Shown here one piece after another: positions 20,509 through 39,223 of a stretch of 64,000 bases of DNA (its first letter is position 1; every line of letters begins with the position of its first letter). The notes beneath the pieces are model-generated. The model saw only the letters and a program-made list of their open reading frames with translations. It was not told where the DNA came from and ran no database searches. The position numbers were made by a program, and so were the translations under genes. Where the stretch lies: NCBI RefSeq assembly GCF_002968335.2, contig NZ_CP134398.1, positions 2,232,001 to 2,296,000 on the forward strand, written 5' to 3'. Source of the stretch: Mycobacterium sp. ITM-2016-00316. Its GTDB lineage: Bacteria > Actinomycetota > Actinomycetes > Mycobacteriales > Mycobacteriaceae.

Positions 20509-20540
20509 AGCATTACAAATCGACGTGGCAGTGTCAGCCC
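20509..20540. promoter_or_regulatory. Island dyad, copy 1 (before the aldehyde dehydrogenase operon)
   Basis: Half-sites AGCATTACA and TGTCAGCCC are separated by exactly 14 bases. The element lies six bases upstream of the aldehyde dehydrogenase start and 15 bases after the TetR stop. It is the weakest copy on the right half. Confidence 0.6.
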
Positions 20541-20555
20541 CTTGGGCCGAATCGG

Positions 20556-21095
20556 TTACTTGATGCCGACGGCGTGCCGCAGCTGTGCGAGGAAATCCCC
20601 CTCGTCATCGCTGCGGACGATGTAGTGCGAGATCGCGACCCGAATCGCGGTGGACGCCTTCACCTGGGCGTTGGCCCCGGAGAGCAGTTTGAGCAGACGT
20701 GCCCGCATCACCGGTATCACGTGGGTCAACTGGGCGATGACGACCTCGGGTTCGATGTCGACGACCCGGACCCCGGAGTAGGACTGCTGGTACTCGACGA
20801 TGAACCGCAGTGCGGCGTCCAGCTTTTCGGTGCCACGCAGGCCGGCGGTCGCAGTGCTGATCCCGGTGTCGAACATCTCGCGCTCGTAGACGCCGAACGC
20901 ACCGAGCAGTTCCTCCTTGGAGGCGAACCAGCGGTACAGCGTCGGCCGGGACACCCCGGCCTGTAGCGCCACCTCGGACAGGCTCAGCTTCGTCTGCCCG
21001 CTGCGTCCGAGCACCTCAGCCGTCGCGGCCAGGATCCGGCGCCGCGTCGAGGTGTCCTCGGCGGCGTCGGCGTGCGCGGAAAGGGGCTTGTTCAC
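20556..21095 (-). CDS. TetR-family regulator, candidate controller of the island
   Basis: This 179-residue regulator has an N-terminal TetR helix-turn-helix (residues about 15-62, with LSLSEVALQAGVSRPTLYRWF as the recognition region) and a helical ligand-binding domain. The GTG start is 25 bases after the phosphotransferase gene, in the same operon. That operon begins at one copy of the 32-bp dyad and the next operon at another, so self-control is likely. It is the only dedicated transcription factor found in the island, which makes it the first candidate for binding the dyad. The inducer is unknown. Confidence 0.85.
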   Translation of the reverse strand: MNKPLSAHADAAEDTSTRRRILAATAEVLGRSGQTKLSLSEVALQAGVSRPTLYRWFASKEELLGAFGVYEREMFDTGISTATAGLRGTEKLDAALRFIVEYQQSYSGVRVVDIEPEVVIAQLTHVIPVMRARLLKLLSGANAQVKASTAIRVAISHYIVRSDDEGDFLAQLRHAVGIK

Positions 21096-21120
21096 GGTAC
21101 CGATGGTAGTGGTTGTGCCA

Positions 21121-22251
21121 TCACAAAGAGGCCTTCAGCGCGTAAACCGTGTCGAGTTCCTCCAGCGCGGACACCGCCCGGCCGAGGCCCTCCAGGGCGA
21201 TGCCCTCGTCCTGCATCCCGCCCATCCCGGCGGTGATCAGGGTGGCGACATAGGCGTACAGCGCCGCCTGGCGGTACCGCTGCCACAGTTCGTCGCGGTC
21301 CATCTCGGGTCCGCCCGCGGCGTGCAGGGCAGCGCGGTACACATCCAGCAGTTCGCGCTGGTTCCCGACCCGCGCGTCGGTGGTCATGCTGGTGATCAAG
21401 GTGTAGGACAGCTCCCGGGACGGATGCCCGCTGCGCACCGCCTGCCAGTCGAGTAGTCCGGCTTTTCCGTTGCGGAAGTAGACGTTTCCCGGATGTGCGT
21501 CGCCGTGCATGATGGTGTGCGGACCACGGTCGATCAGGGTGGCCACCGCCCGGTAGTTGTCATTGATGAACTGACCCGTGCGCACCGGGATCGCGGTCTT
21601 GCCCTCCAGTCGGCGGGCCGCGGCGTTGGCCAGTGATCCGGTCAGCAGCGAGGTCGCATCGCCCGACGCCGTGTACACCCAGGGGTAGGGGTCCAGTCGT
21701 CGCCAGAAGGTGGCGTGTACCCGGGCCAGCAGTTCCACGATGAGCGCCGCGCGGTCCGGGTCCAGTGGGTGCAGAGTGTCGGGGAATTCGCAGGCCGGCT
21801 GCCCGTCGGCCGCCAGATCCTCCAATACCAGCACGAACCGCCCGGTGACGGGGTCGAAGGTCGCCCCGTGGCAGGCCGGCACATCGCCGAGCTGGCCGGA
21901 CAGCTCCCGATAGAACCGCACCTCGGTGTCGGCAAGCCGTCCGAGTTCGCCCATCATTCGGGTGGCTGCGGTTTCGGCGGGCATCTTGACGAACACCGAG
22001 CCGGGCACGTCGGCACCGGTCAGGGCCAGCCGGGCCCGCGACGAGGTGCCGGCGTCGCCGTCGAGCAGGGACACCGAGGTGACGCTGCGCCCGAGCAGGC
22101 CCGACAGATAGGCCGCGTCCAGACCGCCGATGTGGCGGGGGATTGCGCGCGCCCGCCCGAAGATCGCGTCGGTTGCGATACGTTGCATCCCGCGCCCGAG
22201 ATGTGCGGCCAGGCCGAACACCGGCGCGACACTGCTGACCTGCGGAGGCAT
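21121..22251 (-). CDS. Aminoglycoside phosphotransferase-like kinase (APH/choline kinase fold)
   Basis: This 376-residue protein has the APH/protein-kinase-like fold. The catalytic loop MHGDAHPGNVYF and the metal-binding DWQ motif (GLLDWQAV) are intact. Such enzymes in mycobacterial and other actinobacterial catabolic clusters often phosphorylate a small hydroxylated substrate; drug resistance is less likely here. It is the first gene of the operon with the TetR regulator, and its ATG lies five bases from a copy of the island dyad. The divergent gene is a CoA-transferase. The substrate is not known. Confidence 0.75.
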   Translation of the reverse strand: MPPQVSSVAPVFGLAAHLGRGMQRIATDAIFGRARAIPRHIGGLDAAYLSGLLGRSVTSVSLLDGDAGTSSRARLALTGADVPGSVFVKMPAETAATRMMGELGRLADTEVRFYRELSGQLGDVPACHGATFDPVTGRFVLVLEDLAADGQPACEFPDTLHPLDPDRAALIVELLARVHATFWRRLDPYPWVYTASGDATSLLTGSLANAAARRLEGKTAIPVRTGQFINDNYRAVATLIDRGPHTIMHGDAHPGNVYFRNGKAGLLDWQAVRSGHPSRELSYTLITSMTTDARVGNQRELLDVYRAALHAAGGPEMDRDELWQRYRQAALYAYVATLITAGMGGMQDEGIALEGLGRAVSALEELDTVYALKASL

Positions 22252-22256
22252 TGTGC

Positions 22257-22288
22257 AAGCTTACAAATCAAATCAATATTGTAAAGCT
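22257..22288. promoter_or_regulatory. Island dyad, copy 2 (phosphotransferase-TetR operon / CoA-transferase)
   Basis: Half-sites AAGCTTACA and TGTAAAGCT are separated by 14 bases. This is the most symmetric copy: AAGCTTACAA on one side is almost the complement of TTGTAAAGCTT on the other. It lies 5 bases from the phosphotransferase start and 16 from the CoA-transferase start. Confidence 0.7.
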
Positions 22289-22304
22289 TATTGAGGGGAT
22301 TCCC

Positions 22305-23480
22305 ATGTCTGGACCGATGGAGGGGTTCCGGGTTGTCGAGCTCGGCGTCTGGGTGGCGGCACCGGCGGCGGGGGCGATCCTGGCCGACTGGGGTGCCGAT
22401 GTCATCAAGATCGAACCGCCCGCCGGTGATCCGGCCCGCTCATTCGGCCGGATGATGGGGCTCGACAGCGACCTCGGTACCGCGTCCAATCCGCCCTTTC
22501 AGATGGACAACAGGTCCAAGCGCAGCATCGTGCTCGATCTCGGAACCCCGGACGGTCGGCGGACCGCGATCGAATTGATCACCGGCGCAGACGTTTTCCT
22601 GACCAACATCCGTCCGGCGGCGTTGGCCCGGTTGGGCCTGGATTTCAGTTCGGCAGCCACGCACAACCCGCGGCTGGTGTACGGGCTCATCACCGGGTAT
22701 GGCACCGAAGGTCCCGATGCCGACCGGGCGGCCTACGACGTGGCCGCCTTCTGGGCGCGTGCCGGGATCGCCGACCTGCTGACCAGGCCCGGTGACACCC
22801 CGCCGTTTCAGCGCGGCGGAATGGGGGATCACTCGGCGGGGATGACGCTTGCGGCGGCGGTGTGCGCGGCACTGCTTGCCAGAACCCGGACCGGCACAGG
22901 GCAACTGGTGACCACCTCGCTGTACCGCCAAGGTGCCTACACGGTGAGCTTCGATCTCAACACCCTGCTGATGTCCGGTCAGCAGGTGGCCATCGGGCAA
23001 CGGGAGGCGATGGGCAACCCGTGCATGAACAACTACGCCGCCGGTGACGGCAGGCGATTCTGGATCGTCGGCCTCGACGTGGCGCGGCACTGGCCGGCCC
23101 TGTGCCGGTCGGTCGGGCGTGCGGAGTGGCTCACCCGGTACCCGACGCCACGGGACCGGTTCACCCATGCCCGGGACATCATCGCCGAATTGGACACCCT
23201 TTTCGCGTCCAGGACGCTAGCGGAATGGGAGCAGATCTTCGCGGGCGAACCCGACTTCTTCTGGTCGCCCATCAATTCGCTCGACGACGTGGTGGCCGAC
23301 GAACAATTCCACGCCGCCGGCGGCATCGTGTATGTGCCCGAGGGGGATTCGAGCACGCCGATGGTGGCCAGCCCCGCCGACTTCTCGGCCACGCCGTGGC
23401 GCCCGCGCGGTCCGGCGCCCGAACTCGGTGAGCACACCGAACAGATCCTCGCCGAACTCGGCGGCACTCAGGACCGCTGA
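22305..23480 (+). CDS. CaiB/BaiF-type (class III) CoA-transferase
   Basis: This 391-residue enzyme belongs to the class III CoA-transferases, which move CoA between carboxylic acids through an aspartyl-CoA intermediate. The N-terminal VVELGVWVAAPAAGAILADWGADVIKIE-like region (as two shorter blocks) is typical, and the catalytic Asp is probably the one in AAYDVAAFWARAG. GAGGGG lies seven bases before the ATG. It is the only plus-strand gene controlled by dyad copy 2; it would activate an acid intermediate of the island pathway. The last 13 bases overlap the convergent glucosidase gene. Confidence 0.88.
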   Translation: MSGPMEGFRVVELGVWVAAPAAGAILADWGADVIKIEPPAGDPARSFGRMMGLDSDLGTASNPPFQMDNRSKRSIVLDLGTPDGRRTAIELITGADVFLTNIRPAALARLGLDFSSAATHNPRLVYGLITGYGTEGPDADRAAYDVAAFWARAGIADLLTRPGDTPPFQRGGMGDHSAGMTLAAAVCAALLARTRTGTGQLVTTSLYRQGAYTVSFDLNTLLMSGQQVAIGQREAMGNPCMNNYAAGDGRRFWIVGLDVARHWPALCRSVGRAEWLTRYPTPRDRFTHARDIIAELDTLFASRTLAEWEQIFAGEPDFFWSPINSLDDVVADEQFHAAGGIVYVPEGDSSTPMVASPADFSATPWRPRGPAPELGEHTEQILAELGGTQDR

Positions 23481-25666
23481 CGGTTCACCTCGTCGAGTAG
23501 TTCGGTCAGCTGCGGCCGGCTGACCGCGCCACCGCTGAACGACACCATCCGCCCGACCGGGATGGACCCGAGCATGCGCAGCATGTCGGTGCCCAGCGCG
23601 GAACCCGCCGCGCCCTCGGGCGCCGCGCTCGCCAGCGCCGCCGCCACGATCGGGGCGGCCACCGGGTCGCCGAGCAGCTCGCCGAGCGTGGAATCAATGG
23701 TGAACGCGACGGCCGGGGCAACGTCTGCGTCGACGGTCACCTGGGTGTGCAGGCGCAGATCCCGGCTCGACGCCCCCACGGACACCGCGTACTCACCAGC
23801 CTCGACCTGCCGCCGCCCGGCCCGTATGTCCCAGTATCCGAGTTCGTCACGGGGAACCCGTATCTCGACGTCGACCAGCGCGCCGGGCGCCACGGTGACA
23901 CCGGCGAAACCGGCCAGCCACCGTGGCGGGCGCGATACTTTTGACGCCGGCAGCCCGGCGTAGACCTGGACCACCTCGCGGCCCACGCGGTCGCCGGTGT
24001 TCACCACCGACACCCGCACCGTCAGGCCCTCGGCGTCGGAAACCACGGCCAGGTCGGCGTAGTCGAACCGGGTGTAGGACAACCCGTGCCCGAACGGGAA
24101 CGTGACCGCCGTCGCACGGGCGTCATACCAGCGGTATCCGACGAATACCCGTTCCCCATAGAGGATGTGGCCGTCCTCGCCGGGAAAGTTGAGATAGGCC
24201 GGGCTGTCCTGCAGCCGCACCGGCACCGTCTCGGCGAGGCGTCCCGACGGGTTGACCGCGCCGAACAGGACGTCGGCGATCCCGCGCCCGCCGCCCTGTC
24301 CGAGCAGCGCGCCGTCCAGGATCGCCGGGGCCAGGCCGGCCACCCCGTCGAGAGCCACCACCCCGCCGTGTGCCAGCACGGCGACCGTCCGGGGCTGCAC
24401 CTGCACCACCGCGGACAGCAGGTGGAGCTGGTCTGCGGGCAGGTCGATGTGAGTGCGGTCGAAGCCCTCGGATTCGTCCTCGGCCGCCAACCCGAGGAAC
24501 ACCACCGCGGCATCGGCATCGGCGGCCGCCGCGAGGGTCTCGGCGGTGAGATCCTCGGAATAGGTGACCTGATGGCCGTCGGCGTAGCGGCGGATCTCCT
24601 CCAACGGCACGTCGACCCGGGTCGGATTCACATGGGAACTGCCACCGCCCTGATAGCGGGGCCTCACCGCGAACCCGCCGATGACCGCGAGCGAGGACGG
24701 TGCGAGCGGCAACAGGTCGTTCTCGTTCTGCAACAGCACGATCGATCGCGCGGCCGCCTCCCTGGCCAGATCGTGGTGCGCATCGGCATCGAAGGTGGCT
24801 GTGCTACTGCGGTTCTCGGTGACCCGGGCGGCCAGGGTGGCCACCCGGTCGGCGGCGCGGGCCACCACCGTCGCGTCCAGGGTGCCGGCCTCGACGGCGG
24901 CGACAACGTCGGCGTCGCTCGCCTCGTTGCCGCCAGGCATCTCCAAATCGAGGCCCGCGGCCACTGCGGCGACCCGGTCGCCGACCGCGCCCCAGTCACT
25001 GACGACAGCGCCGTCGAAACCCCACTCCTCGCGCAGCACCGTGCTCAACAACCAGGCGTTCTCGGCCGCGTAGACCCCGTTGATCCGGTTGTAGGCGCAC
25101 ATCACCGTCCAGGGTCGGGCCGCAGTGACGACGTGCTCGAAGGCACGCAGGTATAGCTCACGCAGCGTCCGCTCATCCACATCCGAGCTCGACCGCATCC
25201 GGTCATCCTCGGCATTGTTCACGGCGAAGTGCTTCAGCGAGGCGCCCACGCCCTGACCCTGCACGCCGCGCACCCACGCCGCACCGAGCGCCCCGGCGAT
25301 CAGCGGGTCTTCGGAGAAGTACTCGAAATTGCGCCCGCACCGCGGATCCCGTTTCAGGTTGACGCCGGGGCCGAGCAGCACGTGCACGCCCAGGGCCCGG
25401 CTTTCGGCGCCCAGTGCGGCGCCCACCCGTTCGACGAGTTCGGGATCCCAGGTCTGGCTGAGCCCGACCGCCGGCGGGAAACAGGTGGCCGGTTCGCTAC
25501 CGCCCAGCCCCAGATGGTCGCCGGTGCTGCCGGCCTGTCTGCGGACCCCGTGCGGGCCGTCGGTCAGCAGTATGGACGGGACGTCGCCCACCGCCTTGGT
25601 GGTCCAGAAGGTGGCGCCGCTGCCGAGGGCGGCCTGCTCTTCGAGGGAGTCGGTCACCGTTCCCAT
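23468..25666 (-). CDS. Glycoside hydrolase family 3 beta-glucosidase
   Basis: This 732-residue enzyme has the GH3 architecture: an N-terminal TIM-barrel (LLTDGPHGVR, KHFAVNNAE, and the nucleophile Asp224 in VVSDWGAV), the alpha/beta sandwich (about 300-540) and a C-terminal fibronectin III-like domain. No signal peptide is seen, so it works inside the cell on a glucoside that has been taken up. In a cluster of P450s, a Baeyer-Villiger enzyme and CoA steps, it would remove sugar from a glycosylated aglycone. It is transcribed away from the P450 gene, across dyad copy 3, 63 bases upstream. Confidence 0.9.
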   Translation of the reverse strand: MGTVTDSLEEQAALGSGATFWTTKAVGDVPSILLTDGPHGVRRQAGSTGDHLGLGGSEPATCFPPAVGLSQTWDPELVERVGAALGAESRALGVHVLLGPGVNLKRDPRCGRNFEYFSEDPLIAGALGAAWVRGVQGQGVGASLKHFAVNNAEDDRMRSSSDVDERTLRELYLRAFEHVVTAARPWTVMCAYNRINGVYAAENAWLLSTVLREEWGFDGAVVSDWGAVGDRVAAVAAGLDLEMPGGNEASDADVVAAVEAGTLDATVVARAADRVATLAARVTENRSSTATFDADAHHDLAREAAARSIVLLQNENDLLPLAPSSLAVIGGFAVRPRYQGGGSSHVNPTRVDVPLEEIRRYADGHQVTYSEDLTAETLAAAADADAAVVFLGLAAEDESEGFDRTHIDLPADQLHLLSAVVQVQPRTVAVLAHGGVVALDGVAGLAPAILDGALLGQGGGRGIADVLFGAVNPSGRLAETVPVRLQDSPAYLNFPGEDGHILYGERVFVGYRWYDARATAVTFPFGHGLSYTRFDYADLAVVSDAEGLTVRVSVVNTGDRVGREVVQVYAGLPASKVSRPPRWLAGFAGVTVAPGALVDVEIRVPRDELGYWDIRAGRRQVEAGEYAVSVGASSRDLRLHTQVTVDADVAPAVAFTIDSTLGELLGDPVAAPIVAAALASAAPEGAAGSALGTDMLRMLGSIPVGRMVSFSGGAVSRPQLTELLDEVNRQRS

Positions 25667-25729
25667 TCTTCACCCTCGCCGCATGTCCCAATCGGACGAG
25701 GAACTCAGCGGCGCTCAGGGCGGCGGCAT

Positions 25730-25761
25730 AGCTTTACAAACTATTGCTGAACTGTCACGCT
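25730..25761. promoter_or_regulatory. Island dyad, copy 3 (glucosidase / P450-BVMO operon)
   Basis: Half-sites AGCTTTACA and TGTCACGCT with a 14-base spacer, both matching the consensus. It lies between the divergent GH3 glucosidase and P450 genes. Confidence 0.72.
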
Positions 25762-25809
25762 GAATCTGTCGCGACGTCGATGTCGCACGCGCTGGAGGAG
25801 GAAACATCG

Positions 25810-27066
25810 GTGACGGTTGCCAGCACGCCGCAGGCACGCGAATACAGCCCGTTCGACATCACTTCACACGACTTCTGGAGTCAGCCGTTCGATATCCGCG
25901 ACCGGACCTTCGCCGAACTGCGCGTCCTCGACGGGATCAGCTGGCATCCGCCGTTACCGACGCTGTTCGACATCGAAGAGCCGGGGTTCTGGGCGCTGAC
26001 CCGGCGCGCCGACGTCCAATTCGCCAGCCAGAACCCGGATCTGTTCACATCGGCCCAGGGGGTGGCGCTCGATCCGATGCCCGCCGAGGTGCAGAAGTTC
26101 GCGACCTTCTTCCTGGGCATGGATCCGCCGCAGCACACCACCTATCGGCGACTGATCAGTTCGGCTTTCACACCACGCAATGTGCGCCGGATCGAGGAAC
26201 AGATCCACGCCAACGCCGTCGCCATCGTCGACGATCTCGTCGGCGCCGGTGACATCGACTTCGTCGAGGCCTGTTCGGCGCAGCTGCCGATGCGGACGAT
26301 TTCGGACATGCTGGGGGTACCGACAGCCGACCAGCCGGCTTTGGCCAAGGCGGCCGAAAAGCTGTTCAGCATGAGCGATGACGAATTCTCCACGCTGGAA
26401 GAACGGGCCATGGCCACCATCAACGAGATCATGCTGATCTCGGGTACCGGCGTGGAACTGGCCAAGTTCCGGCGCGCCAACCCGGGCGACGATCTGATGA
26501 CCAGCATCGTCAACGCCGAGGTGGACGGGCATCGCCTCACCGATGAGGAGATCGGCGCGTTCCTCATCCTGCTGGCCTCGGCGGGCAACGACACCACCAA
26601 ACAATCGACGACTCATGCCATGCTGGCGCTGGCGGCCAATCCGGACCAAAGAGATTGGCTGATGGAGGATTTCGACGGCCGGATCGGGATGGCCACCGAG
26701 GAGTTCGTGCGCTGGTCCACCCCGGTGCTGCAGTTCGCCCGGTTCGCCACCCAGGATGTCGAGGTCGCGGGTCGGCGCATCAGCGCTGGGGACAAGGTCG
26801 GCCTGTTCTACTGTTCGGCCAACCGCGACGAGAGCGTGTTCGCCGACCCACAGAAGTTCGACCTGAGCCGCTCACCCAACCCGCAGGTGGGCTTCGGCGC
26901 GGGCGGCCCGCACTTCTGCCTGGGCAACCAGCTGGCCAAGAGTGAGCTGCGAAACATCTTCCGCGAGTTGCTGACCCGGCTCACCACCATCGAACTGGGG
27001 GAGCCCGATCTGCTGTACAGCAGCTTCGTGCACGGCATCAAACGGCTACCCGCGCACGTGCGATGA
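25810..27066 (+). CDS. Cytochrome P450 (first of two)
   Basis: This 418-residue soluble bacterial P450 has the oxygen-activating I-helix SAGNDTTKQ, the ExxR motif in EEFVRW and the haem loop FGAGGPHFCLG with Cys370 as iron ligand. It would hydroxylate a small hydrophobic substrate. The GTG at 25810 is chosen because GGAGGAGGAAA ends five bases before it; an ATG at 25780 is possible but has no ribosome site. The next gene, a Baeyer-Villiger monooxygenase, overlaps its stop by 4 bases, so hydroxylation and oxygen insertion are probably consecutive steps. No ferredoxin or ferredoxin reductase gene is nearby. Confidence 0.92.
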   Translation: MTVASTPQAREYSPFDITSHDFWSQPFDIRDRTFAELRVLDGISWHPPLPTLFDIEEPGFWALTRRADVQFASQNPDLFTSAQGVALDPMPAEVQKFATFFLGMDPPQHTTYRRLISSAFTPRNVRRIEEQIHANAVAIVDDLVGAGDIDFVEACSAQLPMRTISDMLGVPTADQPALAKAAEKLFSMSDDEFSTLEERAMATINEIMLISGTGVELAKFRRANPGDDLMTSIVNAEVDGHRLTDEEIGAFLILLASAGNDTTKQSTTHAMLALAANPDQRDWLMEDFDGRIGMATEEFVRWSTPVLQFARFATQDVEVAGRRISAGDKVGLFYCSANRDESVFADPQKFDLSRSPNPQVGFGAGGPHFCLGNQLAKSELRNIFRELLTRLTTIELGEPDLLYSSFVHGIKRLPAHVR

Positions 27067-28994
27067 ATGCGCGGCACCTCGGCACGGAGCCGATCGGTGG
27101 CGTCGATGACGCGACCATCGCCGCCGCGCTCGAGCAGTTGTCGGTCCCGGCGCTGATCGCCTCGGTCGTGCAGATCACCGGTGACCCGTCCTTCATCCAC
27201 GGGTCGATACGGCCGGTCCAGTTCGTGCAGAACGAATTTCAGGGCATGCTCGACGAGCCGAGCAAATCACAGCTACGTTTTTTCGCGCTCGAGGCCATCT
27301 GCGCCTGGCGGGATGCCGGGTGCCCACCAACGCCGCCGATCGGCACCGAACTGATCCGCGAACTGATGGACTGGATCGCCTGCGAGCCAGTACCTGATGA
27401 CCATGCCGCGCTCTACATCGAGGAGATGGACCTGCAGGGAGCCAATCCCCGCGCGATCGCCGGTCCTGACGGCCTGACGCCGCCACCGGGATTCTCGGTG
27501 CTCATCATCGGTTTCGGCGCCTCGGGTCTGCTGGCTGCGATCCGGTTGCAGGAGGCCGGAATTCCGTTCGAGGTCGTCGACAAGAACCCCGATGTCGGCG
27601 GTACCTGGTTCGAGAACAGCTATCCCGGCTGCCGGGTGGACGTGGCGAGCCACTTCTACTCGTACTCCTTCGAGCACGTCGGCGATTTCAGCGCCTACTA
27701 CACTCGCCAGCCCGAGTTGTACGACTACTTCCGCTCGGTGATGAAGGACCACCAGATCGACGCCCATGTCTCGTGGGGCCGAGAGGCGACGCGCGCGCAG
27801 TGGGATGACCGGACGGGTCAGTGGACGGTGACCCTGCGCGATGCCGACGGCTCGACGGAGCAGCGGACGGCCTCGGCGATCGTTTCCGGCGTCGGCTTCC
27901 TCAACCGGCCGCTCATCCCGGATCTTCCCGGGCTGGAAGATTTTGCGGGCCCGGCCTTCCACTCGGCCCAGTGGGATCATTCGGTGGACCTGCGCGGTAA
28001 GCGGGTCGCCCTCATCGGCGCCGGCGCCAGTGGTTTCCAGATCGGCCCCGCCATCGTCGACGAGGTCGAACACCTGGTGGTGTTCCAGCGCACCGCACAG
28101 TGGATGGCGCCCAACCCGCGTTACCACGCGAGCGTCACCGACGGTGAGCGCTGGGCGATGCGTCACCTGCCGGGGTACTCCCGCTGGTATCGCTTCATGC
28201 TCATGTGGCAGTCCAGCGACAAGATGCTGGAACTGGTTCGCGCGGACCCTGATTGGCATGACTTCCCGCGCACCGCGAACGAGGCCAGCGCCGCCCGGCG
28301 CGAGTTCTTCGCGAAGTGGATCCAGGACCAAGTCGGCGATATGCCAGATCTCGCCGCCAAGGTCACCCCGGACTATCCGCCGATGGCCAAACGCATGTTG
28401 CAGGACAACGGCAGCTGGTTGCGCTGCTTGCGGCGCGAGCATGTGACGTTCGTCAACGATCCGATCACCGATATCGACGGGACTTCGATCAGCACCGCAG
28501 AAGGCCGCCATGAGGTTGACGTCATCGTGTTGGCCACCGGTTTCCGCGCCTCGGAGGTGCTCTGCCCGATGGAGGTGATCGGCCGCGACGGGGTACCGAT
28601 ATCCGCGGTCTGGGAGGGTAAACCCGCCGCCTTCAACGGTGTTTCGGTGAACGGATTCCCGAACTTCTTCATGATGGCCGGGCCGGGTACCGGCCTCGCC
28701 CACGCCGGCAGCGTGATCTTCATGCTGGAATGCCAGATGCGCTACATCGGTGCGGCGCTGCGGACGGTGATCGAGCGGGGCAAGCGCACCATCGAACCCA
28801 CCGCCGAGGCCTATGCGCGCTACAACCGTGAGCTTCAGGACGAGGTGGCCACCCTGATGTGGGGGCATCCGTCCATCGAGCACTCCTGGTACAAATCGCC
28901 CGACGGTGGTGTCTACGTGCTGAGTCCGTTCGGGTCGGTGGAGTACTGGAAGCGCACCGGCGTGCTCGCCGATGGGGATCACGTGCTGGGCTGA
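27063..28994 (+). CDS. Baeyer-Villiger monooxygenase, 4-hydroxyacetophenone monooxygenase type
   Basis: This 643-residue flavoprotein uses FAD, NADPH and O2 to turn a ketone into an ester or lactone. The first Rossmann motif GFGASG is at 150-155, the Baeyer-Villiger fingerprint FxGxxxHxxxW at 294-304 (Phe294, His300, Trp304, followed by Asp in place of Pro), and the NADPH motif GAGASG further on. The extra N-terminal domain of about 140 residues and the total length match 4-hydroxyacetophenone monooxygenase (about 640 residues) and not cyclohexanone monooxygenase. The gene overlaps the P450 by 4 bases. The product ester or lactone could be taken by the lactonase or the alpha/beta hydrolase of the island. 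Confidence 0.9.
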   Translation: MNARHLGTEPIGGVDDATIAAALEQLSVPALIASVVQITGDPSFIHGSIRPVQFVQNEFQGMLDEPSKSQLRFFALEAICAWRDAGCPPTPPIGTELIRELMDWIACEPVPDDHAALYIEEMDLQGANPRAIAGPDGLTPPPGFSVLIIGFGASGLLAAIRLQEAGIPFEVVDKNPDVGGTWFENSYPGCRVDVASHFYSYSFEHVGDFSAYYTRQPELYDYFRSVMKDHQIDAHVSWGREATRAQWDDRTGQWTVTLRDADGSTEQRTASAIVSGVGFLNRPLIPDLPGLEDFAGPAFHSAQWDHSVDLRGKRVALIGAGASGFQIGPAIVDEVEHLVVFQRTAQWMAPNPRYHASVTDGERWAMRHLPGYSRWYRFMLMWQSSDKMLELVRADPDWHDFPRTANEASAARREFFAKWIQDQVGDMPDLAAKVTPDYPPMAKRMLQDNGSWLRCLRREHVTFVNDPITDIDGTSISTAEGRHEVDVIVLATGFRASEVLCPMEVIGRDGVPISAVWEGKPAAFNGVSVNGFPNFFMMAGPGTGLAHAGSVIFMLECQMRYIGAALRTVIERGKRTIEPTAEAYARYNRELQDEVATLMWGHPSIEHSWYKSPDGGVYVLSPFGSVEYWKRTGVLADGDHVLG

Positions 28995-29040
28995 CACCAG
29001 CCGAGCTGCCACCCATATCCTTGAAATTTCCCTTGCGCGG

Positions 29041-29406: not shown

Positions 29407-29547
29407 ATGCGACGTTGCTCCCATCTCCACCCGGTGAGCACAGACCGCGACTCCGGTCGCCGCGAGGTTCGACGGTCCTACGGGACTGTGCGAGCCGTAT
29501 TGACTGATCGTGCCCGTTGGGCACCTTCTGTGAAAGTCGGTATCCCT

Positions 29548-31820: not shown

Positions 31821-31839
31821 GGTCGTTGTCTCCAGAGGG

Positions 31840-32643
31840 TCAGGCAGCGGGGATGTCGACGCTGACCGCGTCGAGGGTGGACAGCTTGGTGCCGATCAGG
31901 CGCTCGGGGTACGCGTCGGTGCTGGACAGCAGGAACAGGGTCCGTCCCTCCGGCCCGCCCAGCGCACAGGCGATGGCGGTGCGCCCGGCCATGTCGATGC
32001 GGTCGGTGACGCCCTCGGGGGTGATGCGCTCGAACGCATGCGCCAGGGTCATCGCCGCCCACACGCCACCATCGGCGTCCACGGCCAGCCCGTCGGGTGG
32101 GCCGTCCAACCCCTCGGCGAACACCCGCCGATCGTGCAGGGCGCCGTCGTCGGCGAGGGTGAACGCGCTCAGGCGCCGCGCGGTCGACTCGGCGACCACG
32201 AAGGTGCCGTCGGGGGTGATCACCATGCCGTTGGGGAAGTTGAGATCCTCGGCGACCACCGACACCCGGTCATCGAGGTCCAGCCGGACGATCACGCCGC
32301 CCTCACGGGCCTGCGACCCGATGTACGCCCGTCCTGCGGAGTCGACGACCATATCGCCGAGGTCCGCGGGCACCAGATCGGCGACATCGGCCAGCACCGA
32401 AACGGATTCACCGTCATAGGCCAGGATCTCGCGCCGCCGGGTGGACGCGATCAGCAAGGTACCGTCCGGCCGGAACCCCAGTCCGGACGGCGCATGGCCG
32501 GGCAGCGGCAGGGTCGACATCTCACCGTGCAACGTGACGGTGTGCACGGCCTCGCCGAGCATGTCGGAGAACCAGACCAGGCCCTCGAACCAGCGTGCGC
32601 CCTCGCCGAAGCAGAACCCGTTGGCCAACGGCTGGATGGTCAT
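31840..32643 (-). CDS. SMP-30/gluconolactonase-family lactonase
   Basis: This 267-residue six-bladed beta-propeller has the SMP-30 metal site: the Glu in FGEGARW (about residue 15), the Asn in NFPNGM and the Asp in PDGLAVDADG. Such enzymes open lactone rings with Ca or Zn. In this island it could hydrolyse a lactone made by the Baeyer-Villiger enzyme, or gluconolactone if the released glucose is oxidised. Its ATG is 29 bases from dyad copy 4, opposite the NIPSNAP-like gene. Confidence 0.85.
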   Translation of the reverse strand: MTIQPLANGFCFGEGARWFEGLVWFSDMLGEAVHTVTLHGEMSTLPLPGHAPSGLGFRPDGTLLIASTRRREILAYDGESVSVLADVADLVPADLGDMVVDSAGRAYIGSQAREGGVIVRLDLDDRVSVVAEDLNFPNGMVITPDGTFVVAESTARRLSAFTLADDGALHDRRVFAEGLDGPPDGLAVDADGGVWAAMTLAHAFERITPEGVTDRIDMAGRTAIACALGGPEGRTLFLLSSTDAYPERLIGTKLSTLDAVSVDIPAA

Positions 32644-32672
32644 GGGTTCACGATAGCCGACTCGACTGCCGC

Positions 32673-32704
32673 GCCTTTACAAAACACGGCTCAAATGTCA
32701 CGCT
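32673..32704. promoter_or_regulatory. Island dyad, copy 4 (lactonase operon / second P450 operon)
   Basis: Half-sites GCCTTTACA and TGTCACGCT with a 14-base spacer. The plus-strand gene starts only six bases after it, so a protein bound here would block the start of that transcript; that mRNA may be leaderless. Confidence 0.7.
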
Positions 32705-32710
32705 CGCTGG

Positions 32711-33415
32711 GTGCGTAAATACCACCGCCACACACTGCTGTACTTGCACGAGACCATCGAGCTGGGCAGCGGTGGCAGCGATGAGTTCAGCGAACGCTTC
32801 ACCGGCATTTATCAGCCGATGATGGAGCAACTGGGAGCCCGGTTGTTCGCGCTGTGGGAGGCGACGCCCTACGACGGGCACTGGCCCCAGGTCACCATCA
32901 TCTGGGAGATCGACGCGTTCGCCGACTATGCAAGGATCGGCAAGGCGCAGGCCCGCGGCGGCAGCCACGCCGCCGCCGCCACCGCATGGGCGGCCTACCT
33001 GTCCGGGATCGGCGCGCACGGCGAGGGCCGGATCATGTATGCCGCACCGCAGAACCGCAACCTCGCACAGTTGCGGGAGGAACGCTTCACCGCCGAGCTG
33101 GTGATCCAGGAGGTCATGCAGACCAAGCCCGGCAAGCAGGACGATTACATCCGGGAACTGGAACGCCTCTACGTGCCGTGGTCGGAAAGCACCGGCAAGC
33201 GCTGGCTCGGATCGTTCACCACCACCTTTCGGTTCAACGAGGTCATCCATTACTGGGCGCTGGACGGCGGGTGGGACTGTTTCGAGAACCACTATCCGTC
33301 CTGGAAGGACGCCCCACCCGCGGAGATCGTCACCTGGATGTCCGTGGCGCCCGCGCTGCGCGACGGCTGGGAGGACTCGATCCTGGCCGCACTACCGGCG
33401 TCCCCACTGCAGTGA
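32711..33415 (+). CDS. NIPSNAP-like protein (two ferredoxin-like repeats)
   Basis: This 234-residue protein seems to consist of two dimeric alpha/beta-barrel repeats (about 1-105 and 115-225), each with a strand-helix pattern like NIPSNAP or EthD domains; the second begins at VIQEVMQTKPGKQDDYIREL. Proteins of this type are found with P450s and other oxygenases in catabolic clusters, sometimes as isomerases or helpers, but the function is unknown. The GTG start lies six bases after dyad copy 4. It opens a plus-strand operon that runs through the second P450, an alcohol dehydrogenase, an aldolase, an SDR and a hydrolase. Confidence 0.6.
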   Translation: MRKYHRHTLLYLHETIELGSGGSDEFSERFTGIYQPMMEQLGARLFALWEATPYDGHWPQVTIIWEIDAFADYARIGKAQARGGSHAAAATAWAAYLSGIGAHGEGRIMYAAPQNRNLAQLREERFTAELVIQEVMQTKPGKQDDYIRELERLYVPWSESTGKRWLGSFTTTFRFNEVIHYWALDGGWDCFENHYPSWKDAPPAEIVTWMSVAPALRDGWEDSILAALPASPLQ

Positions 33416-33426
33416 AAGACACTGCG

Positions 33427-34641: not shown

Positions 34642-35604
34642 ATGTGGAGTTACCGACTGGTCGCGCCGTTCACATTCGAGCGCGCCGACCTGCCCGAGCC
34701 CGATCCGCAGCGACTGGCCGACGGACAGGTGCTGCTGCGCTTCCTGGCCGCCGGGATCTGCGGTAGCGACCTGCCCGGTTTCCGGGGAGCGCAGGGGAAG
34801 CTGCCCGGCGACACCGGATGCTGCGCCGCCGAGATGGATGGCTTCCCGATCCACGAGATCGCCGGTGAGGTACTGGTCAGTGCCCACCCGGCGCACGCGG
34901 TGGGGGACCGGGTGGTCGGCTGGGCCTCCGGGTTCGACGGGCTGCAGGCCCAGGTGGTGGCAGACGGTGACGGATTGTCCCGGTACCGGCCAGATCTGAC
35001 ACCGCAGCACGCCATCGGGCTGCAACCGTTGGCCTGCGTGCTCTACGCCGTCGAGCAACTCGGCGACCTGACCGGCAAACGGGTCGCGGTCATCGGGCAG
35101 GGCTCGATCGGACTGCTGTTCTCCTACGTGGTCAAGGCCGCCGGCGCCGCCCACGTCACCGGTGTCGACCCGGTCGACCGCGAGACGCTCGGCCCGGCGT
35201 TCGGTGTCGACGAGGTGGTCCGCGCGACCAGCGATCGGTGGGTCCGCCACGTCACCGACAAGTTCGACGTCGTCGTCGAGACGGTCGGGCATCAGGTCGC
35301 CACCCTCAACCACGCTCTCGACGCCGCCGCGTTCGGCGCGACGGTGTTCTACTTCGGGGTGCCCGATGACGACAGCTACCCGATCAGCATGCGCACCATG
35401 CTGCGCAACAATCTGACCCTGAAATCCGGTGTGACGCTGGAACGCCGGCGGGTACTGGCCGCCGCCGACGCGTTCGCCGGCCGGCACCCGCAGCTGCTGC
35501 CCGACTACCTGACGCACTTCTTCGGCCCCGATGAGGCACAGGCCGCCTTCGAACAGGCCTGCCGGCCCGACCCGAAGCGGGTCAAGATCGCGATCGTCGC
35601 GTGA
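34642..35604 (+). CDS. Medium-chain alcohol dehydrogenase (short form)
   Basis: This 320-residue medium-chain dehydrogenase has the catalytic-zinc residues Cys40 (AGICGSD) and the His71-Glu72 pair (PIHE), and the NAD-binding motif VIGQGSIG. The lobe with four cysteines for structural zinc is absent, which explains the short length. It probably oxidises the alcohol made by a P450 to a ketone, the form needed by the Baeyer-Villiger enzyme. Its ATG follows the P450 stop with no gap, and the aldolase start overlaps its own stop by 4 bases. Confidence 0.83.
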   Translation: MWSYRLVAPFTFERADLPEPDPQRLADGQVLLRFLAAGICGSDLPGFRGAQGKLPGDTGCCAAEMDGFPIHEIAGEVLVSAHPAHAVGDRVVGWASGFDGLQAQVVADGDGLSRYRPDLTPQHAIGLQPLACVLYAVEQLGDLTGKRVAVIGQGSIGLLFSYVVKAAGAAHVTGVDPVDRETLGPAFGVDEVVRATSDRWVRHVTDKFDVVVETVGHQVATLNHALDAAAFGATVFYFGVPDDDSYPISMRTMLRNNLTLKSGVTLERRRVLAAADAFAGRHPQLLPDYLTHFFGPDEAQAAFEQACRPDPKRVKIAIVA

Positions 35605-36344
35605 GCCGCCTGCAGGACGTGCTGGCGGCCAAGGAGCACATCTGGGGCGGCTGGGTGGTCGGGCCGACCATCATCGGGCCCGAGGAATTCGCCCAGGCCG
35701 GCTACGACTACGTCGGATTCGACGTCCAGCACGGCTATCTCGACGACGCCGACGTCGCGCTGTTGCTGCGCCGCCTCGAGCACGTGCCGATCGCCACGGC
35801 CGTGCGGTTGCCGTCGGCCGCCCCGGCGCCGATCGGCCGGGTGCTCGACGCGGGTGCCGACGCGGTGATCATCGCCATGGTCGAATCGGCGGACCAGGCC
35901 GCCACCGCGGTGGCCGCCACCCGCTACGCCCCGGCCGGTGTGCGCAGCTTCGGGCCGCTGCGGGCCTCCCTGGGCGTCGACACCGCCGCGCTGGAGGCCG
36001 CCGCCGACGTCTACGTGATGATCGAAACCGTGCGGGGGTTGGCCGCGCTCGACGAGATCTGCGCGGTGCCGGGCCTGACGGGTGTCTACGTCGGGCCCGC
36101 CGACCTGGCCATCTCCATGGGCCACCGGCTCGCCGACGCCTGGACCCACCCCGACGTGCACGCGGCGGTGGCAGAGATCCAGGACACCGCCGCCGCTGCC
36201 GGACTGGTCGCCGGTATCCACGCCGGAGCGGGCAAGCCCGGAAAGGCCATGGCCGAGCTCGGTTTCCGGATGATCACGCTGACATCGGAATCCCAGGCGC
36301 TGCGCCGCGGCGCAGCCGCACACCTGAGCGAGGCCCAGTCATGA
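35601..36344 (+). CDS. HpcH/HpaI-family class II aldolase
   Basis: This 247-residue TIM-barrel enzyme resembles 2-keto-3-deoxy acid aldolases (HpcH/HpaI). The metal-binding Glu is probably in MIETVRGL and the Asp in VGPADLA; the active-site His is in FDVQHGYL. It would cleave a 4-hydroxy-2-oxo acid to pyruvate and an aldehyde, and the aldehyde dehydrogenase of the island could act on the latter. The GTG start overlaps the alcohol dehydrogenase stop (GTGA) and its end overlaps the SDR start (ATGA). Confidence 0.85.
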   Translation: MSRLQDVLAAKEHIWGGWVVGPTIIGPEEFAQAGYDYVGFDVQHGYLDDADVALLLRRLEHVPIATAVRLPSAAPAPIGRVLDAGADAVIIAMVESADQAATAVAATRYAPAGVRSFGPLRASLGVDTAALEAAADVYVMIETVRGLAALDEICAVPGLTGVYVGPADLAISMGHRLADAWTHPDVHAAVAEIQDTAAAAGLVAGIHAGAGKPGKAMAELGFRMITLTSESQALRRGAAAHLSEAQS

Positions 36345-37066
36345 CCCCACCGGTGGCGCTGGTGACCGGAGCGGCCCGGGGACAAGGTGCGGCGATCGTC
36401 GCCCGGCTGCACGCCGACGGGTTCCGGGTGGCGGCCTGTGATCTGCTACTCGACGAATTGCGCAGCAGCACAGCAGCGTACGGTGGCAACGTCATCGCTC
36501 TGGAGCTCGATGTGACCTCCGAGGCGCAGTGGAACGCCGTCGTCGCCGCGACCGTCGAACGCTTCGGCGCGTTGAGCGCCCTGGTGAACAACGCCGGGGT
36601 ACTGCACCGGGCCGCCCTCGCCGACGAGACCGCCGCCGGATTCGAAAACAGCTGGCGGGTCAACTGTCTCGGCCCGTTCCTCGGCATCCGGGCCGCGCTG
36701 CCGCACCTGACCGGCGCCAAAGGTGCCGCGATCGTCAACACCTGCAGCACCAGCGCGATCCGGCCGTTCCCGAATCATGCCGCCTACGGCTCGTCGAAGT
36801 GGGCGCTGCGCGGGCTCACCCAGGCCGTCGCGGTCGAACTCGCACCGACGGGTATTCGGGTCAACGCGGTGTTCCCCGGCCCGATCGCCACCCCCATGCT
36901 CGATGAACGCACCCAGGCCCGGCTGGCCGATACCTCCACCGCGGGTCGGCTGGGCACCCCGACCGAGGTGGCCGACGCCGTGGCGTTCCTGGTGTCGGCC
37001 CAGGCGTCGTTCATCACCGGTTCGGAGCTGGTGATCGATGGCGGCCAGATCCTGCGGATCGGTTGA
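36341..37066 (+). CDS. Short-chain dehydrogenase/reductase
   Basis: This 241-residue classical SDR has the cofactor motif TGAARGQG, the NNAG motif, the catalytic Ser in NTCSTSA, and YGSSK with the Tyr and Lys. The pattern resembles 3-alpha/20-beta hydroxysteroid dehydrogenases, but these SDRs have broad substrates. It is coupled to the aldolase and hydrolase genes on each side. It probably interconverts an alcohol and a ketone of the island pathway. Confidence 0.88.
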   Translation: MTPPVALVTGAARGQGAAIVARLHADGFRVAACDLLLDELRSSTAAYGGNVIALELDVTSEAQWNAVVAATVERFGALSALVNNAGVLHRAALADETAAGFENSWRVNCLGPFLGIRAALPHLTGAKGAAIVNTCSTSAIRPFPNHAAYGSSKWALRGLTQAVAVELAPTGIRVNAVFPGPIATPMLDERTQARLADTSTAGRLGTPTEVADAVAFLVSAQASFITGSELVIDGGQILRIG

Positions 37067-37071
37067 CCGGG

Positions 37072-37983
37072 ATGGATATCATCCACCGGTTGGATCCGGC
37101 GCTACGGCACCTGGTCGCGGCCCGCACCGACCTGTCCGAAGAGCTGCTGCCGGCGGTGCGCGCCTTCCTGAATCAGCGCCGCGCCGACAGCGCCGCCCAA
37201 CTGGACACCGCCGGCGTGGATATCGAGGACACGGTGGCCTGCGAGGAGGTGCCGGTGCGCATCTACCGGGGCGGCGCCCGGGGTGCGGTGGTCTACTGCC
37301 ACAGCGGTGCGTTCGTGCTGGGAAATCTGGACACCGATCATCTGCAGTGCCTGGAGCTGGCGCGCCGCGCCGCCGTCACGGTAATCTCGGTGGACTACCG
37401 ACTGGCCCCGGAGCATCCGTATCCGGCGGGGTTCGACGATGCGCTGGCGGTACTGCACTGGACGGCGGACAACGCAGCGCACTGGGGAGTGGCCACCGAT
37501 CGGCTGGCGGTCGCGGGCAGCAGCGCCGGGGGAGCGCTGGCCGCCGGGCTGGCGCAATGCGCCGCCGCCGGGTCCGCGCCGCCGCTCCGATTCCAGTTGC
37601 TGCACCAACCGGTGCTCGATGACGGCCTTACCCCGTCCAAGCAGGAGTTCACCCATACGCCCGGATTCGACGGTCCGGCAGCGGAATTGATGTGGCGCCA
37701 CTACCTGGCCGGTGAACGCCCCCCGGCCGGTGCGGTGCCTGCCCGGTCCACCGACCTGACCGGTCTGGCGCCGGCCTTCATCAGCTGCTCCGAGCTCGAC
37801 CCGCTGCGCGATGAGGCCGTCGACTACGCACTGCGGCTGATGTGGGCGGGGGTGCCGACCGAACTGCACGTGGTCCCGGGCACCTGCCACGGATTCGACT
37901 CGCTGGTCCCGGGTTGGGAGCTCAGCAGGCAGATGCTCGACCGCCACGCCGCGGCACTGCGCCGCGCCCTGGCGCTCAGCTGA
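37072..37983 (+). CDS. Alpha/beta hydrolase, hormone-sensitive lipase family
   Basis: This 303-residue esterase of the HSL family has the nucleophile Ser151 in GSSAGG, the acid in ELDPLRDE and the His in CHGFDSL. The oxyanion motif, normally HGGG, reads CHSGAF, a notable variant. It could hydrolyse the ester made by the Baeyer-Villiger monooxygenase. The ATG at 37072 is used; a TTG at 37063 overlaps the SDR stop and cannot be excluded. It is the last plus-strand gene of this operon and overlaps the convergent SRPBCC gene by 8 bases. Confidence 0.83.
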   Translation: MDIIHRLDPALRHLVAARTDLSEELLPAVRAFLNQRRADSAAQLDTAGVDIEDTVACEEVPVRIYRGGARGAVVYCHSGAFVLGNLDTDHLQCLELARRAAVTVISVDYRLAPEHPYPAGFDDALAVLHWTADNAAHWGVATDRLAVAGSSAGGALAAGLAQCAAAGSAPPLRFQLLHQPVLDDGLTPSKQEFTHTPGFDGPAAELMWRHYLAGERPPAGAVPARSTDLTGLAPAFISCSELDPLRDEAVDYALRLMWAGVPTELHVVPGTCHGFDSLVPGWELSRQMLDRHAAALRRALALS

Positions 37984-37987
37984 GCGC
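37972..37987. terminator. Perfect 16-bp palindrome across two convergent stop codons
   Basis: GCGCTCAG followed directly by its complement CTGAGCGC. It contains the TGA of the hydrolase on one strand and the TGA of the SRPBCC gene on the other. It may help to end transcription from both sides, but it has no loop or T-tract, so it may simply be shared coding sequence. Confidence 0.35.
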
Positions 37988-38452
37988 GTCGAGCTCGCGG
38001 GCCACCGCGGCGTGATAGGCGTCGATGTGGGACGGGTTGACGATCCGGAAGAACCCGTCACCCATCGGCGCATCGCGATACGCTTCGATGGTCATGGTCC
38101 GCGCGAACAGCGTGACGCCGGGATCGGGTCGGCTGAAGTGATATTCGATGGTCATCCGGCCCTCGAATCCGCCGTTGCCGTCGTAGTCGGTGCCGAGGCG
38201 GCCCACCGAACTGAACACCCACATCCGCGGCCGGGTGGCGATCGCCAGCTGCCAGGTGAACACCCTGTCCTCGGTGGGGTGGGCCTCCTGCCAGGTGTCA
38301 CCGACTCTCAGCGGCAACGTCTCCCGCACACCGGTGATACGCGGTCCGCCCGGGTAGGTCTTGGCCCAGTTGGCCGGGTTGGTGACGAAATCGTAGATGG
38401 CTTCCGCGGATTGGGTGAACGCGGTTTCCGAACTGGTGGTGACGATGCCCAA
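37976..38452 (-). CDS. SRPBCC (START/polyketide cyclase-like) protein
   Basis: This protein of about 158 residues has the SRPBCC helix-grip fold with a deep hydrophobic pocket: it starts with the strand and AEAIYDFVTNPANWAKTYPG pattern and ends with the long C-terminal helix. Such proteins bind or transform hydrophobic ring compounds. No ATG fits; the TTG at 38452 is preceded at seven bases by AGAAAGG, so it is chosen as start. It lies 28 bases after the DUF427 gene in an operon that starts at dyad copy 5. Confidence 0.75.
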   Translation of the reverse strand: MGIVTTSSETAFTQSAEAIYDFVTNPANWAKTYPGGPRITGVRETLPLRVGDTWQEAHPTEDRVFTWQLAIATRPRMWVFSSVGRLGTDYDGNGGFEGRMTIEYHFSRPDPGVTLFARTMTIEAYRDAPMGDGFFRIVNPSHIDAYHAAVARELDALS

Positions 38453-38480
38453 CAGGGTGCCTTTCTCGTGTGGTGAAAAC

Positions 38481-39185
38481 TCAGGTGGCGCAACCGCAGT
38501 CGCCGTTGCCGCCAACGGGCAGCTCGGCGAGGATATCGGTGCGCGTGTCGTCGAAGCTGAGAAAGCCTTTGATGGCAACCGATTCCGGCAGGGTGTCGGC
38601 GTAGCTCCACGCCACATCGGCGAAGACCTGCTCGCCGACGACCGCCGACCAGTAGGTCGCGTAACCCTTGTAATTGCAGTAACTGGTGGTCTCGCTGCGG
38701 CGCAGCAGATCGGTGCGCACCGCGGCCGGATCGACGTACAGTCGTGGCGCCAGCGAGGTCTCGTACACGATCACGGTGTCGGTGGTGTCCACCAGCACGG
38801 TGCCGCCGACGCTGACCCGCAGACCCCGATTGGTGGGCAGACAGTCCACCCGGTGGTAGGGATTCGGCGGGTAGTGCACCAGGGTGCGCCCCTCCTCGAT
38901 CCAGCTGTCCACGGCGTCCCAGGGCACCCGCACGTATCCCGGCTTCTCCGGTACCGCTTCGGTGGGCAGTCCGTCGATCTCGGCGACGGGAAAGGCATAG
39001 CTGAGCGGGTGGTCGCGGCGGTGCACCATCAGGGCGGTCTCGGTGTCGATCACCGTGCGTCCGTTGAGCACCGCCTGCACCCGACGGGGATGCGGTTCGA
39101 TGAAGACGAGTTCGTCCGGTATCGAGGGAAAGAACCAGCCGGCGGGATCACGGCTCAGCGGCCCGCGTCCGGCGTAGAGCGTCAT
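38481..39185 (-). CDS. DUF427 protein (two repeats)
   Basis: This 234-residue protein contains two DUF427 units (about 25-110 and 120-215), recognised by the pattern VxNGxTVxDT...L and later YCNYKGYATYWS. DUF427 proteins are common in actinobacteria and have no firm biochemical role. The C-terminal CGCAT tail with two cysteines is unusual. The ATG lies six bases from dyad copy 5, so it is part of the regulon. Confidence 0.8.
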   Translation of the reverse strand: MTLYAGRGPLSRDPAGWFFPSIPDELVFIEPHPRRVQAVLNGRTVIDTETALMVHRRDHPLSYAFPVAEIDGLPTEAVPEKPGYVRVPWDAVDSWIEEGRTLVHYPPNPYHRVDCLPTNRGLRVSVGGTVLVDTTDTVIVYETSLAPRLYVDPAAVRTDLLRRSETTSYCNYKGYATYWSAVVGEQVFADVAWSYADTLPESVAIKGFLSFDDTRTDILAELPVGGNGDCGCAT

Positions 39186-39191
39186 TCCGAG

Positions 39192-39223
39192 AGCTTTACA
39201 GATTCCCGATTAAATGTCACGCT
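39192..39223. promoter_or_regulatory. Island dyad, copy 5 (DUF427-SRPBCC operon / hypothetical gene)
   Basis: Half-sites AGCTTTACA and TGTCACGCT with a 14-base spacer, the same half-sites as copy 3. It lies between the divergent DUF427 and hypothetical genes and is the right-most copy in the island. Confidence 0.72.

Follow-up and report, generated by a model that had tools for sequence, protein, structure and literature searches.

How the operons of a catabolic island are switched together, and by which protein, is the question raised by a window of 64,000 nucleotides (the whole stretch of DNA analysed, positions 2,232,001 to 2,296,000 of contig NZ_CP134398.1) from Mycobacterium sp. ITM-2016-00316, whose genome is one chromosome of 5,986,944 bases. 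Between about 19.0 and 39.9 kb the window holds a conserved mycobacterial oxidation island in which a 32-bp inverted repeat with the core TTACA-N14-TGTNA, hereafter the dyad, occurs five times, together with a gene for a TetR-family regulator (TetR, or TetR-1 where a paralogue is discussed). From observations of sequence, spacing, co-occurrence, synteny and start-codon geometry, we consider it likely that each dyad is a combined operator and two-way promoter under the control of the island's TetR, and that the whole very probably constitutes a conserved, autoregulated mycobacterial TetR regulon.

Five dyads in the oxidation island

The original prediction, made from the letters of the window, had placed five copies of one element in the island, and all five are found where it put them (dyads 1 to 5, Table 1). 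The full consensus that it proposed, AGCNTTACA-N14-TGTNANGCT, is exact in two of them (25730 and 39192), the other three bearing two mismatches in the outer arms, and the core is matched by all five. The minus-strand reading TGACA-N14-TGTAA, given for every copy, holds for four, with TTTACA-N14-TGTAA at 22257. Four dyads lie between divergent genes and the fifth (20509) between the TetR stop codon and the start of the aldehyde dehydrogenase gene (AldDH), and the dyad at 22257 does precede the operon formed by a phosphotransferase gene (APH) and TetR.

The claim that the five dyads cannot be put down to chance is borne out. With up to three mismatches allowed, the window yields 10 matches (five places, each counted on both strands) against a mean of 0.31 in shuffled sequence, and none of 100 shuffles reaches 10. 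A weight matrix trained on 202 dyads from other genomes ranks the five sites first to fifth in the window, at 47.0, 46.6, 46.0, 11.1 and 6.0 bits, the next place scoring -16.9. The core is concentrated in the island but not confined to it: of 15 places in the genome, five fall within these 18.7 kb and 10 elsewhere, and many of the latter may be chance, since the core pattern written backwards, used as a control, gives eight matches in the same genome.

A fixed spacer and a wide distribution in the genus

The fixed spacing of 14 bp, originally read from five sites, is the firmest property of the element. A loose spacer was considered as a feature of the dyad and rejected: when spacers of 8-20 bp were allowed in 45 whole genomes, 102 of 102 matches had exactly 14, and the backwards control gave a single match (G035). 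Across spacers of 4-24 bp, CTTTACA-Nk-TGTCACGCT likewise returned 189 distinct sequences, all with 14, many of their loci having been fetched with the 14-bp pattern. Of the 148 genus genomes searched, 114 have this pattern in its 14-bp form and none has its backwards control (0/148). Among the 80 loci listed from at least 117 stretches in a broad collection scan, 77 are mycobacterial, with one each from Aldersonia, Shewanella and Verrucomicrobia; chance matches are expected in a scan of this breadth.

The surroundings of the dyad are conserved as well. Most of 20 loci fetched from other genomes carry the island genes in similar order with intervening dyads, the exceptions being two with only a few island genes (L212 and L213). 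Wherever a close AldDH (81-89% identity) is present, a dyad stands directly upstream (12 of 12 such loci), and the island's NIPSNAP gene occurs in 100 of the 148 genus genomes, all 100 of which also have TetR and dyads, a control of limited power. What appears to be one and the same switch is found in a large part of the genus.

The dyad co-occurs with the island's TetR

Homologues of the island's TetR (E<=1e-20) are present in 123 of the 148 genus genomes. The dyad is found in 114 of these 123 and in none of the 25 TetR-negative genomes, five of which were identified by subtraction (Fisher p 3.9e-21). A draw of 301 genomes from the family, overlapping the genus draw, has TetR (E<=1e-25) in 38 genomes from five of 31 genera, and the form CTTTACA-N14-TGTCACRCT occurs in 29 of these 38 vs 0 of 263 without TetR (7.7e-33). 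The association persists among genomes devoid of the island NIPSNAP gene, 14 of 23 with TetR having the dyad vs 0 of 25 without (1.7e-6).

We regard as more telling than these p values the arrangement seen farther out. Six relatives of TetR, with 46-54% identity, come from two other genera (L323-L328), and in all six a TTACA-N14-TGTNA dyad lies at the promoter of the TetR gene itself; within 4.5 kb on either side of these TetR genes no close island gene was found, only distant P450 matches and, once, a DUF427 match. At three of these promoters (L324, L326 and L327, another genus) two such dyads are nested 9 bp apart.

Sorted by identity, 147 distinct TetR sequences (duplicates and matches shorter than 110 aa removed) show how the position of the dyad changes with the class of protein. 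Between -900 and +400 bp relative to the start of the TetR match, a dyad is present in 46/54 at 78% identity or above, 28/29 at 58-68%, 16/16 at 45-58% and 2/3 below 45%. With its centre in the upstream interval -10 to +80 bp, counted from the match start, it is present in 5/54, 12/45, 28/29, 15/16 and 2/3 from the highest band to the lowest, the second figure referring to 68-78%. Proteins of the highest band correspond to TetR-1, with dyads mostly downstream, ahead of AldDH, and ahead of APH; the 58-68% band is mostly a paralogue, TetR-2, which shares about 60-69% identity with TetR-1 and lies beside the P450a gene in many relatives. In the 45-58% band the letters of the right arm are mostly altered, to TGTCACACT in eight of 16 and TGTAAAGTG in four, while the spacer is unchanged. 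A further TetR clade of about 49-55% identity (L245, L246, L247, L249, L250 and L259) has dyads of the form TTTACAT...ATGTCACACT on one side and, nearby, a second, more symmetric TTACA-N14-TGTAA dyad, which we read as a sister regulon.

The genome of the window has a single TetR of this family (E<=1e-8) and thus no TetR-2, yet keeps dyad 3 between GH3 and P450a (23468-25730), at the place that is the TetR-2/P450a site in many relatives. This points to a loss of TetR-2, because its site persists while only one TetR does.

The TetR protein itself has an N-terminal TetR_N helix-turn-helix (Pfam PF00440, 48 bits against a cut-off of 24), and its structure model (pLDDT 87.2) comprises nine helices in an all-helical TetR fold. 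The 50 Foldseek matches listed for this model are TetR-type or unnamed regulators, the first being FasR (TM 0.70 by query length, E 4.6e-05, 22% identity), which has been crystallised with acyl-CoA. The residue that follows the TLYR motif tracks the TetR class in a suggestive but not clean manner: it is W in 120, Y in seven and unread in one of the 128 proteins with at least 58% identity (class A), and H in three, Y in three, F in one and unread in two of the nine proteins of the TGTCACA class. The remaining 10 sequences have F (four), L (two), Y (two) and S (one), with one unread.

Promoter-like geometry on both strands

Read as sigma-70-type elements on either strand, each dyad presents a putative -35 hexamer (TTTACA, GTGACA, CTGACA or similar), 17 bp, and then TGT before a -10-like hexamer, as in CTGACA-N17-AATGCT on the minus strand of dyad 1. 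An overlap with promoter elements had been raised as a possibility; a promoter role now looks integral to the element. Of 199 distinct dyads, 85 have an ATG or GTG starting exactly 6 bp past the right edge and 44 have one at that distance past the left edge (23 on both sides), where the means for other offsets are 7.7 and 5.9, respectively, and the next highest counts are 35 (offset 5, right) and 26 (offset 0, left). In the window the AldDH (ATG), NIPSNAP (GTG) and DUF427 (ATG) genes start 6 bp past dyads 1, 4 and 5, and APH (ATG) 5 bp past dyad 2, which makes four of nine genes; the others start at 16 bp (CaiB, ATG, on the far side of dyad 2), 29 bp (SGL), 48 bp (P450a), 57 bp (the gene at 39281) and 63 bp (GH3).

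Start codons 6 bp past the edge suggest leaderless genes. A start site at these codons would place the -10 about 9-10 bp upstream, and a study of M. tuberculosis promoters gives a distance of 7-12 bp from -10 to start site and reports that, of the genes assigned a primary start site, 26% are leaderless (PMC3898074).

The AldDH gene, which lies on one side of its dyad, provides a view of the putative operator and promoter functions apart. Thirty loci picked through TetR alone (L052-L081) include 26 with an AldDH start, and the core dyad is upstream of AldDH in all 26. Among their 23 distinct dyads the ATG lies 6 or 7 bp past the dyad edge in every copy, and the edge T on the side of the gene is kept in 22 vs two for the edge base on the idle side (p 1.5e-9, uncorrected for ancestry), so the outer bases behave like a piece of the -10, preserved only on the side where a gene begins. 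NIPSNAP genes picked regardless of dyads (60 of 102 places, with G000 and G059 passed over) yielded 22 distinct dyads, all 22 with the T on the gene side. A further comparison, of AldDH dyads (right-edge T in 4/41) with SGL/NIPSNAP dyads (55/70, p 5e-13), was set aside, many loci of the second set having been fetched with a pattern that demanded the T and the core of both sets having been fixed by the search; it had entered symmetric APH/CaiB dyads in both orientations (96 rows) and dropped matches below 55% identity or without the N-terminus.

A proposed switch

From the patterns above we infer TetR binding, repression, start sites, stoichiometry and inducer as follows. The operator of TetR would consist of the inner arms TTACA and TGT(C/A)A held 14 bp apart. 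The same arms would serve RNA polymerase, TTTACA or GTGACA acting as the -35 and the other arm, 17 bp on, as an extended -10 (TGT-nAnnnT), and with this geometry on both strands one dyad could start two divergent, often leaderless, mRNAs. TetR seated on the core arms would exclude polymerase from both promoters, until an inducer, probably a pathway substrate or an acyl-CoA intermediate, released it and turned on the cluster together with the TetR operon; acyl-CoA in this role is a guess. The centres of the core arms are 19 bp apart and those of the 9-bp arms 23 bp, about two helical turns. We suggest that two TetR dimers may sit side by side on one dyad, because this distance is wide for one, the regulator QacR binds as a tetramer, and dyads occur nested 9 bp apart in the three loci noted above.

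Genes of the island and candidate distal members

The dyads and genes of the island are listed in Table 1; labelling drew in part on what we take to be the P450 haem signature. For P450a the nearest solved structure is CYP268A2 (E 4e-128). A DUF222/HNH endonuclease gene (29407-30882) between the flavin monooxygenase and thioesterase genes has no dyad and looks like an insertion.

Table 1. Dyads and genes of the oxidation island, in window coordinates
Feature	Coordinates	Strand	Remark
AldDH, aldehyde dehydrogenase	19018..20502	-	scores too low for TIGR04284, hence distinct from the Rv0768 orthologue
Dyad 1	20509..20540	-	predicted AldDH operator/promoter; one-sided, outer bases of right arm not conserved
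TetR-1, TetR-family regulator	20556..21095	-	putative dyad-binding protein
APH/EcKL-type phosphotransferase	21121..22251	-	first gene of the TetR operon
Dyad 2	22257..22288	.	separates APH-TetR (-) from CaiB (+)
CaiB-type CoA transferase	22305..23480	+	
GH3, glycoside hydrolase family 3	23468..25666	-	
Dyad 3	25730..25761	.	separates GH3 (-) from P450a and the flavin monooxygenase (+)
P450a, cytochrome P450	25810..27066	+	
Flavin monooxygenase	27063..28994	+	resembles the Baeyer-Villiger type in NCBIfam, with a score under the cut-off
Acyl-CoA thioesterase (4HBT)	31005..31820	-	
SGL, SMP-30/gluconolactonase-like	31840..32643	-	
Dyad 4	32673..32704	.	separates SGL-4HBT (-) from the NIPSNAP-P450b operon (+)
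NIPSNAP-like protein	32711..33415	+	heads its operon, begins 6 bp past dyad 4
P450b, cytochrome P450	33412..34641	+	start codon approximate
Zinc-type dehydrogenase, HpcH/HpaI aldolase, short-chain dehydrogenase (SDR)	34642..37066	+	
Alpha/beta hydrolase (Abhydrolase_3)	37072..37983	+	
Second gene of DUF427 unit	~37976-38461	-	without Pfam match; SRPBCC label by eye only
DUF427 gene	38481-39185	-	whole two-gene unit 37976..39185
Dyad 5	39192..39223	.	separates DUF427 (-) from an uncharacterised gene (+)
Protein 3' of dyad 5	39281..39868	+	without Pfam match

Away from the island, position 3,475,945 of the same genome carries a dyad (36.3 bits) ahead of a gene pair coding for acyl-CoA dehydrogenase and luciferase-like monooxygenase. 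Another genome (G110) has homologues of both (66% and 67% identity) within its island, downstream of a full dyad (L253 and L260), and the pair is a predicted distal member of the regulon. Weaker candidates are found at 4,136,825 (13.2 bits, ahead of a P450 and a ferredoxin gene) and 3,319,347 (6.5 bits). One genome (G067) has 13 exact dyads, among them one at 2658 of L251 (G067:C4:105000-124999), ahead of a run of genes with an MlaE permease and Mce4-type proteins; in this genome the regulon may extend to an mce-type uptake operon.

Relation to known systems

No description of a TTACA-N14-TGTNA dyad regulon was found among the titles listed in searches of the open-licence literature, and within these searches the regulon is undescribed, as had been supposed. 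Searches on CYP268 and the available part of PMC13254585 yielded no regulator, and AlkU of Rhodococcus, considered as a counterpart, was rejected on the different repeats given in the accessible part of its description (PMC6921075).

The closest likeness is to the regulon of Rv0767c and its motif X (PMC6593523). It too has a mycobacterial TetR, palindromes before P450, aldehyde dehydrogenase and SDR operons, and proposed autoregulation. In Mycobacterium sp. VKM Ac-1817D, motif X, a palindrome similar to the Rv0767c motif, stands before 14 operons, and phytosterol induces 12 of these more than 3-fold (PMC6593523). The TetR of the window is distinct from the Rv0767c orthologue, which in the window's own genome sits beside CYP123/CYP51 and divergent from aldA, at a locus apart from the island (L283). 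For such loci we assumed a gene order around Rv0767c in M. tuberculosis, and took G[HQ]HTS to flag CYP51. Loci of the Rv0767c/aldA type were found through the family TIGR04284 in eight genomes, the window's included. The region between aldA and the Rv0767c-like TetR has a conserved TGGACA-NN-TGTCCA, with core GGACA-NN-TGTCC, in 8/8 genomes, and the TTACA-N14-TGTNA dyad is absent from it in 8/8. Searched by blastp (E<=1e-3) against the predicted proteins of nine loci, the TetR of the window gives 32-33% identity over 66 residues in two loci and no match in L283. Identity of the dyad with the published motif X was rejected, given that the orthologous loci in eight genomes carry another palindrome. 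Motif X is probably TGGACA-NN-TGTCCA, because the eight orthologous intergenic regions share that palindrome and have no N14 dyad. In the eight-genome alignment, L283 (G000:C1:5110000-5124999) shows two GGACA-NN-TGTCC copies at about 5212-5408.

AcrR is a repressor of the TetR family. In E. coli it represses both directions of the bidirectional PacrA/acrR promoter (PMC12825309), so the principle of bidirectional repression is already known. That system resembles the dyads as proposed here in having one repressor, both directions and a pseudo-symmetrical promoter; its two directions share one -10, whereas the dyads would have two, each over the -35 of the opposite strand, in many copies under one regulator. 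For QacR the site is a 28-bp palindrome, which it occupies as a tetramer (PMC4482099). QacR and TetR operators are palindromic like the dyads, which differ in their length of 32 bp and open 14-bp centre. The KstR and KstR2 sterol regulons (PMC6593523, PMC4482099) are alike in the TetR-type control of a scattered mycobacterial catabolic regulon, through different proteins.

Weighing the explanations

The dyads are best read as marking one regulon, controlled by the local TetR, because genomes free of TetR are free of dyads, the genome has one TetR of this family, and distant relatives carry the dyad at their own promoter in six of six cases; the same lines of evidence support the proposal, already part of the original prediction, that TetR binds the dyads and controls itself. 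Were the dyads pure divergent promoters for a housekeeping or alternative sigma factor, symmetric by having -35 and -10 on both strands and in need of no regulator, the 17-bp spacing, the extended -10 and the start codons at +6 on both strands would all be accounted for. Promoters tolerate variation in spacer length, however, while the dyad spacer is 14 bp throughout; both arms are kept upstream of AldDH in 26/26 loci although one gene starts there; and dyads occur in none of the TetR-free genomes drawn. We hold this reading to be very improbable. The linkage of TetR and island, and the fact that TetR is the only regulator compared for co-occurrence, could suit a different, unlinked regulator that binds the dyads while TetR merely travels with the island, but other genera keep a dyad of the same spacing at the promoter of TetR itself with no close island gene within 4.5 kb on either side, and the letters of the dyad shift with the class of TetR, leaving such a regulator a very slim chance. 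An operator that covers both -35 and -10 would be expected, once bound, to exclude polymerase, which makes it very improbable that TetR binds as an activator, or as a repressor for one strand and an activator for its opposite, even though some TetR-family proteins activate and the closest fold, FasR, is named a transcriptional activator by NCBIfam, in a model whose cut-off the window protein falls far below.

Several observations weigh against dyads that act as operator-promoters under TetR. The co-occurrence p values are not independent, island and TetR being linked, the species related and shared ancestry ignored. Nine of the 123 TetR-positive genus genomes are without an exact dyad; seven of them were fetched, three with a degenerate dyad near TetR (G026, G054 and G055) and four with none within about 4.5 kb of TetR (G056, G063, G078 and G084), the remaining two being G042 and G070. 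Of the 45 TetR genes at 68-78% identity, no more than 16 are accompanied by a dyad between -900 and +400 bp, which speaks against a simple rule of adjacency; in at least some of these genomes the dyads lie farther off, as in G007 (TetR at C230:13084-13584, dyads at 15365 and 20341). For the 60 NIPSNAP genes, the 450 bp upstream contain a dyad in just 23 cases, and the set of promoters with dyads differs between species. The proposed -10 hexamers (CACGCT, AAAGCT, AATGCT, AAGCTT and AAAGGC) do not have the first T of the mycobacterial TANNNT, nor one of them the last, and the study of M. tuberculosis promoters found no -35 motif (PMC3898074). The distance of 19-23 bp between half-sites is wide for one TetR dimer, and with Y after TLYR in 7/128 of class A and 3/9 of the TGTCACA class, that residue is no clean marker.

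Implications

What is new here is the promoter-like layout of the dyad arms, seen on either strand, and the excess of start codons exactly 6 bp past the edge. In its most general form the proposal is that one TetR subfamily, spread through mycobacteria and into some further genera of the family, has an operator coupled to a reciprocal promoter: a half-site would act as -35 for one gene and at once as extended -10 for the divergent neighbour, the mRNAs being often leaderless, with a locked 14-bp spacer that serves both protein and polymerase and with clades that have matching dyad alphabets; for this wider statement we see the chances as evenly balanced. For an island of two P450s, a flavin monooxygenase, a CoA-transferase, a thioesterase and an aldolase, the regulon as predicted provides a regulator, an operator code and a list of targets, and the inducer of TetR would name the island's substrate. 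Paralogue clades with altered dyads form a natural set for studies of TetR specificity. The reciprocal -35/-10 layout would represent a compact switch, through which two leaderless genes may be controlled by one bound protein.

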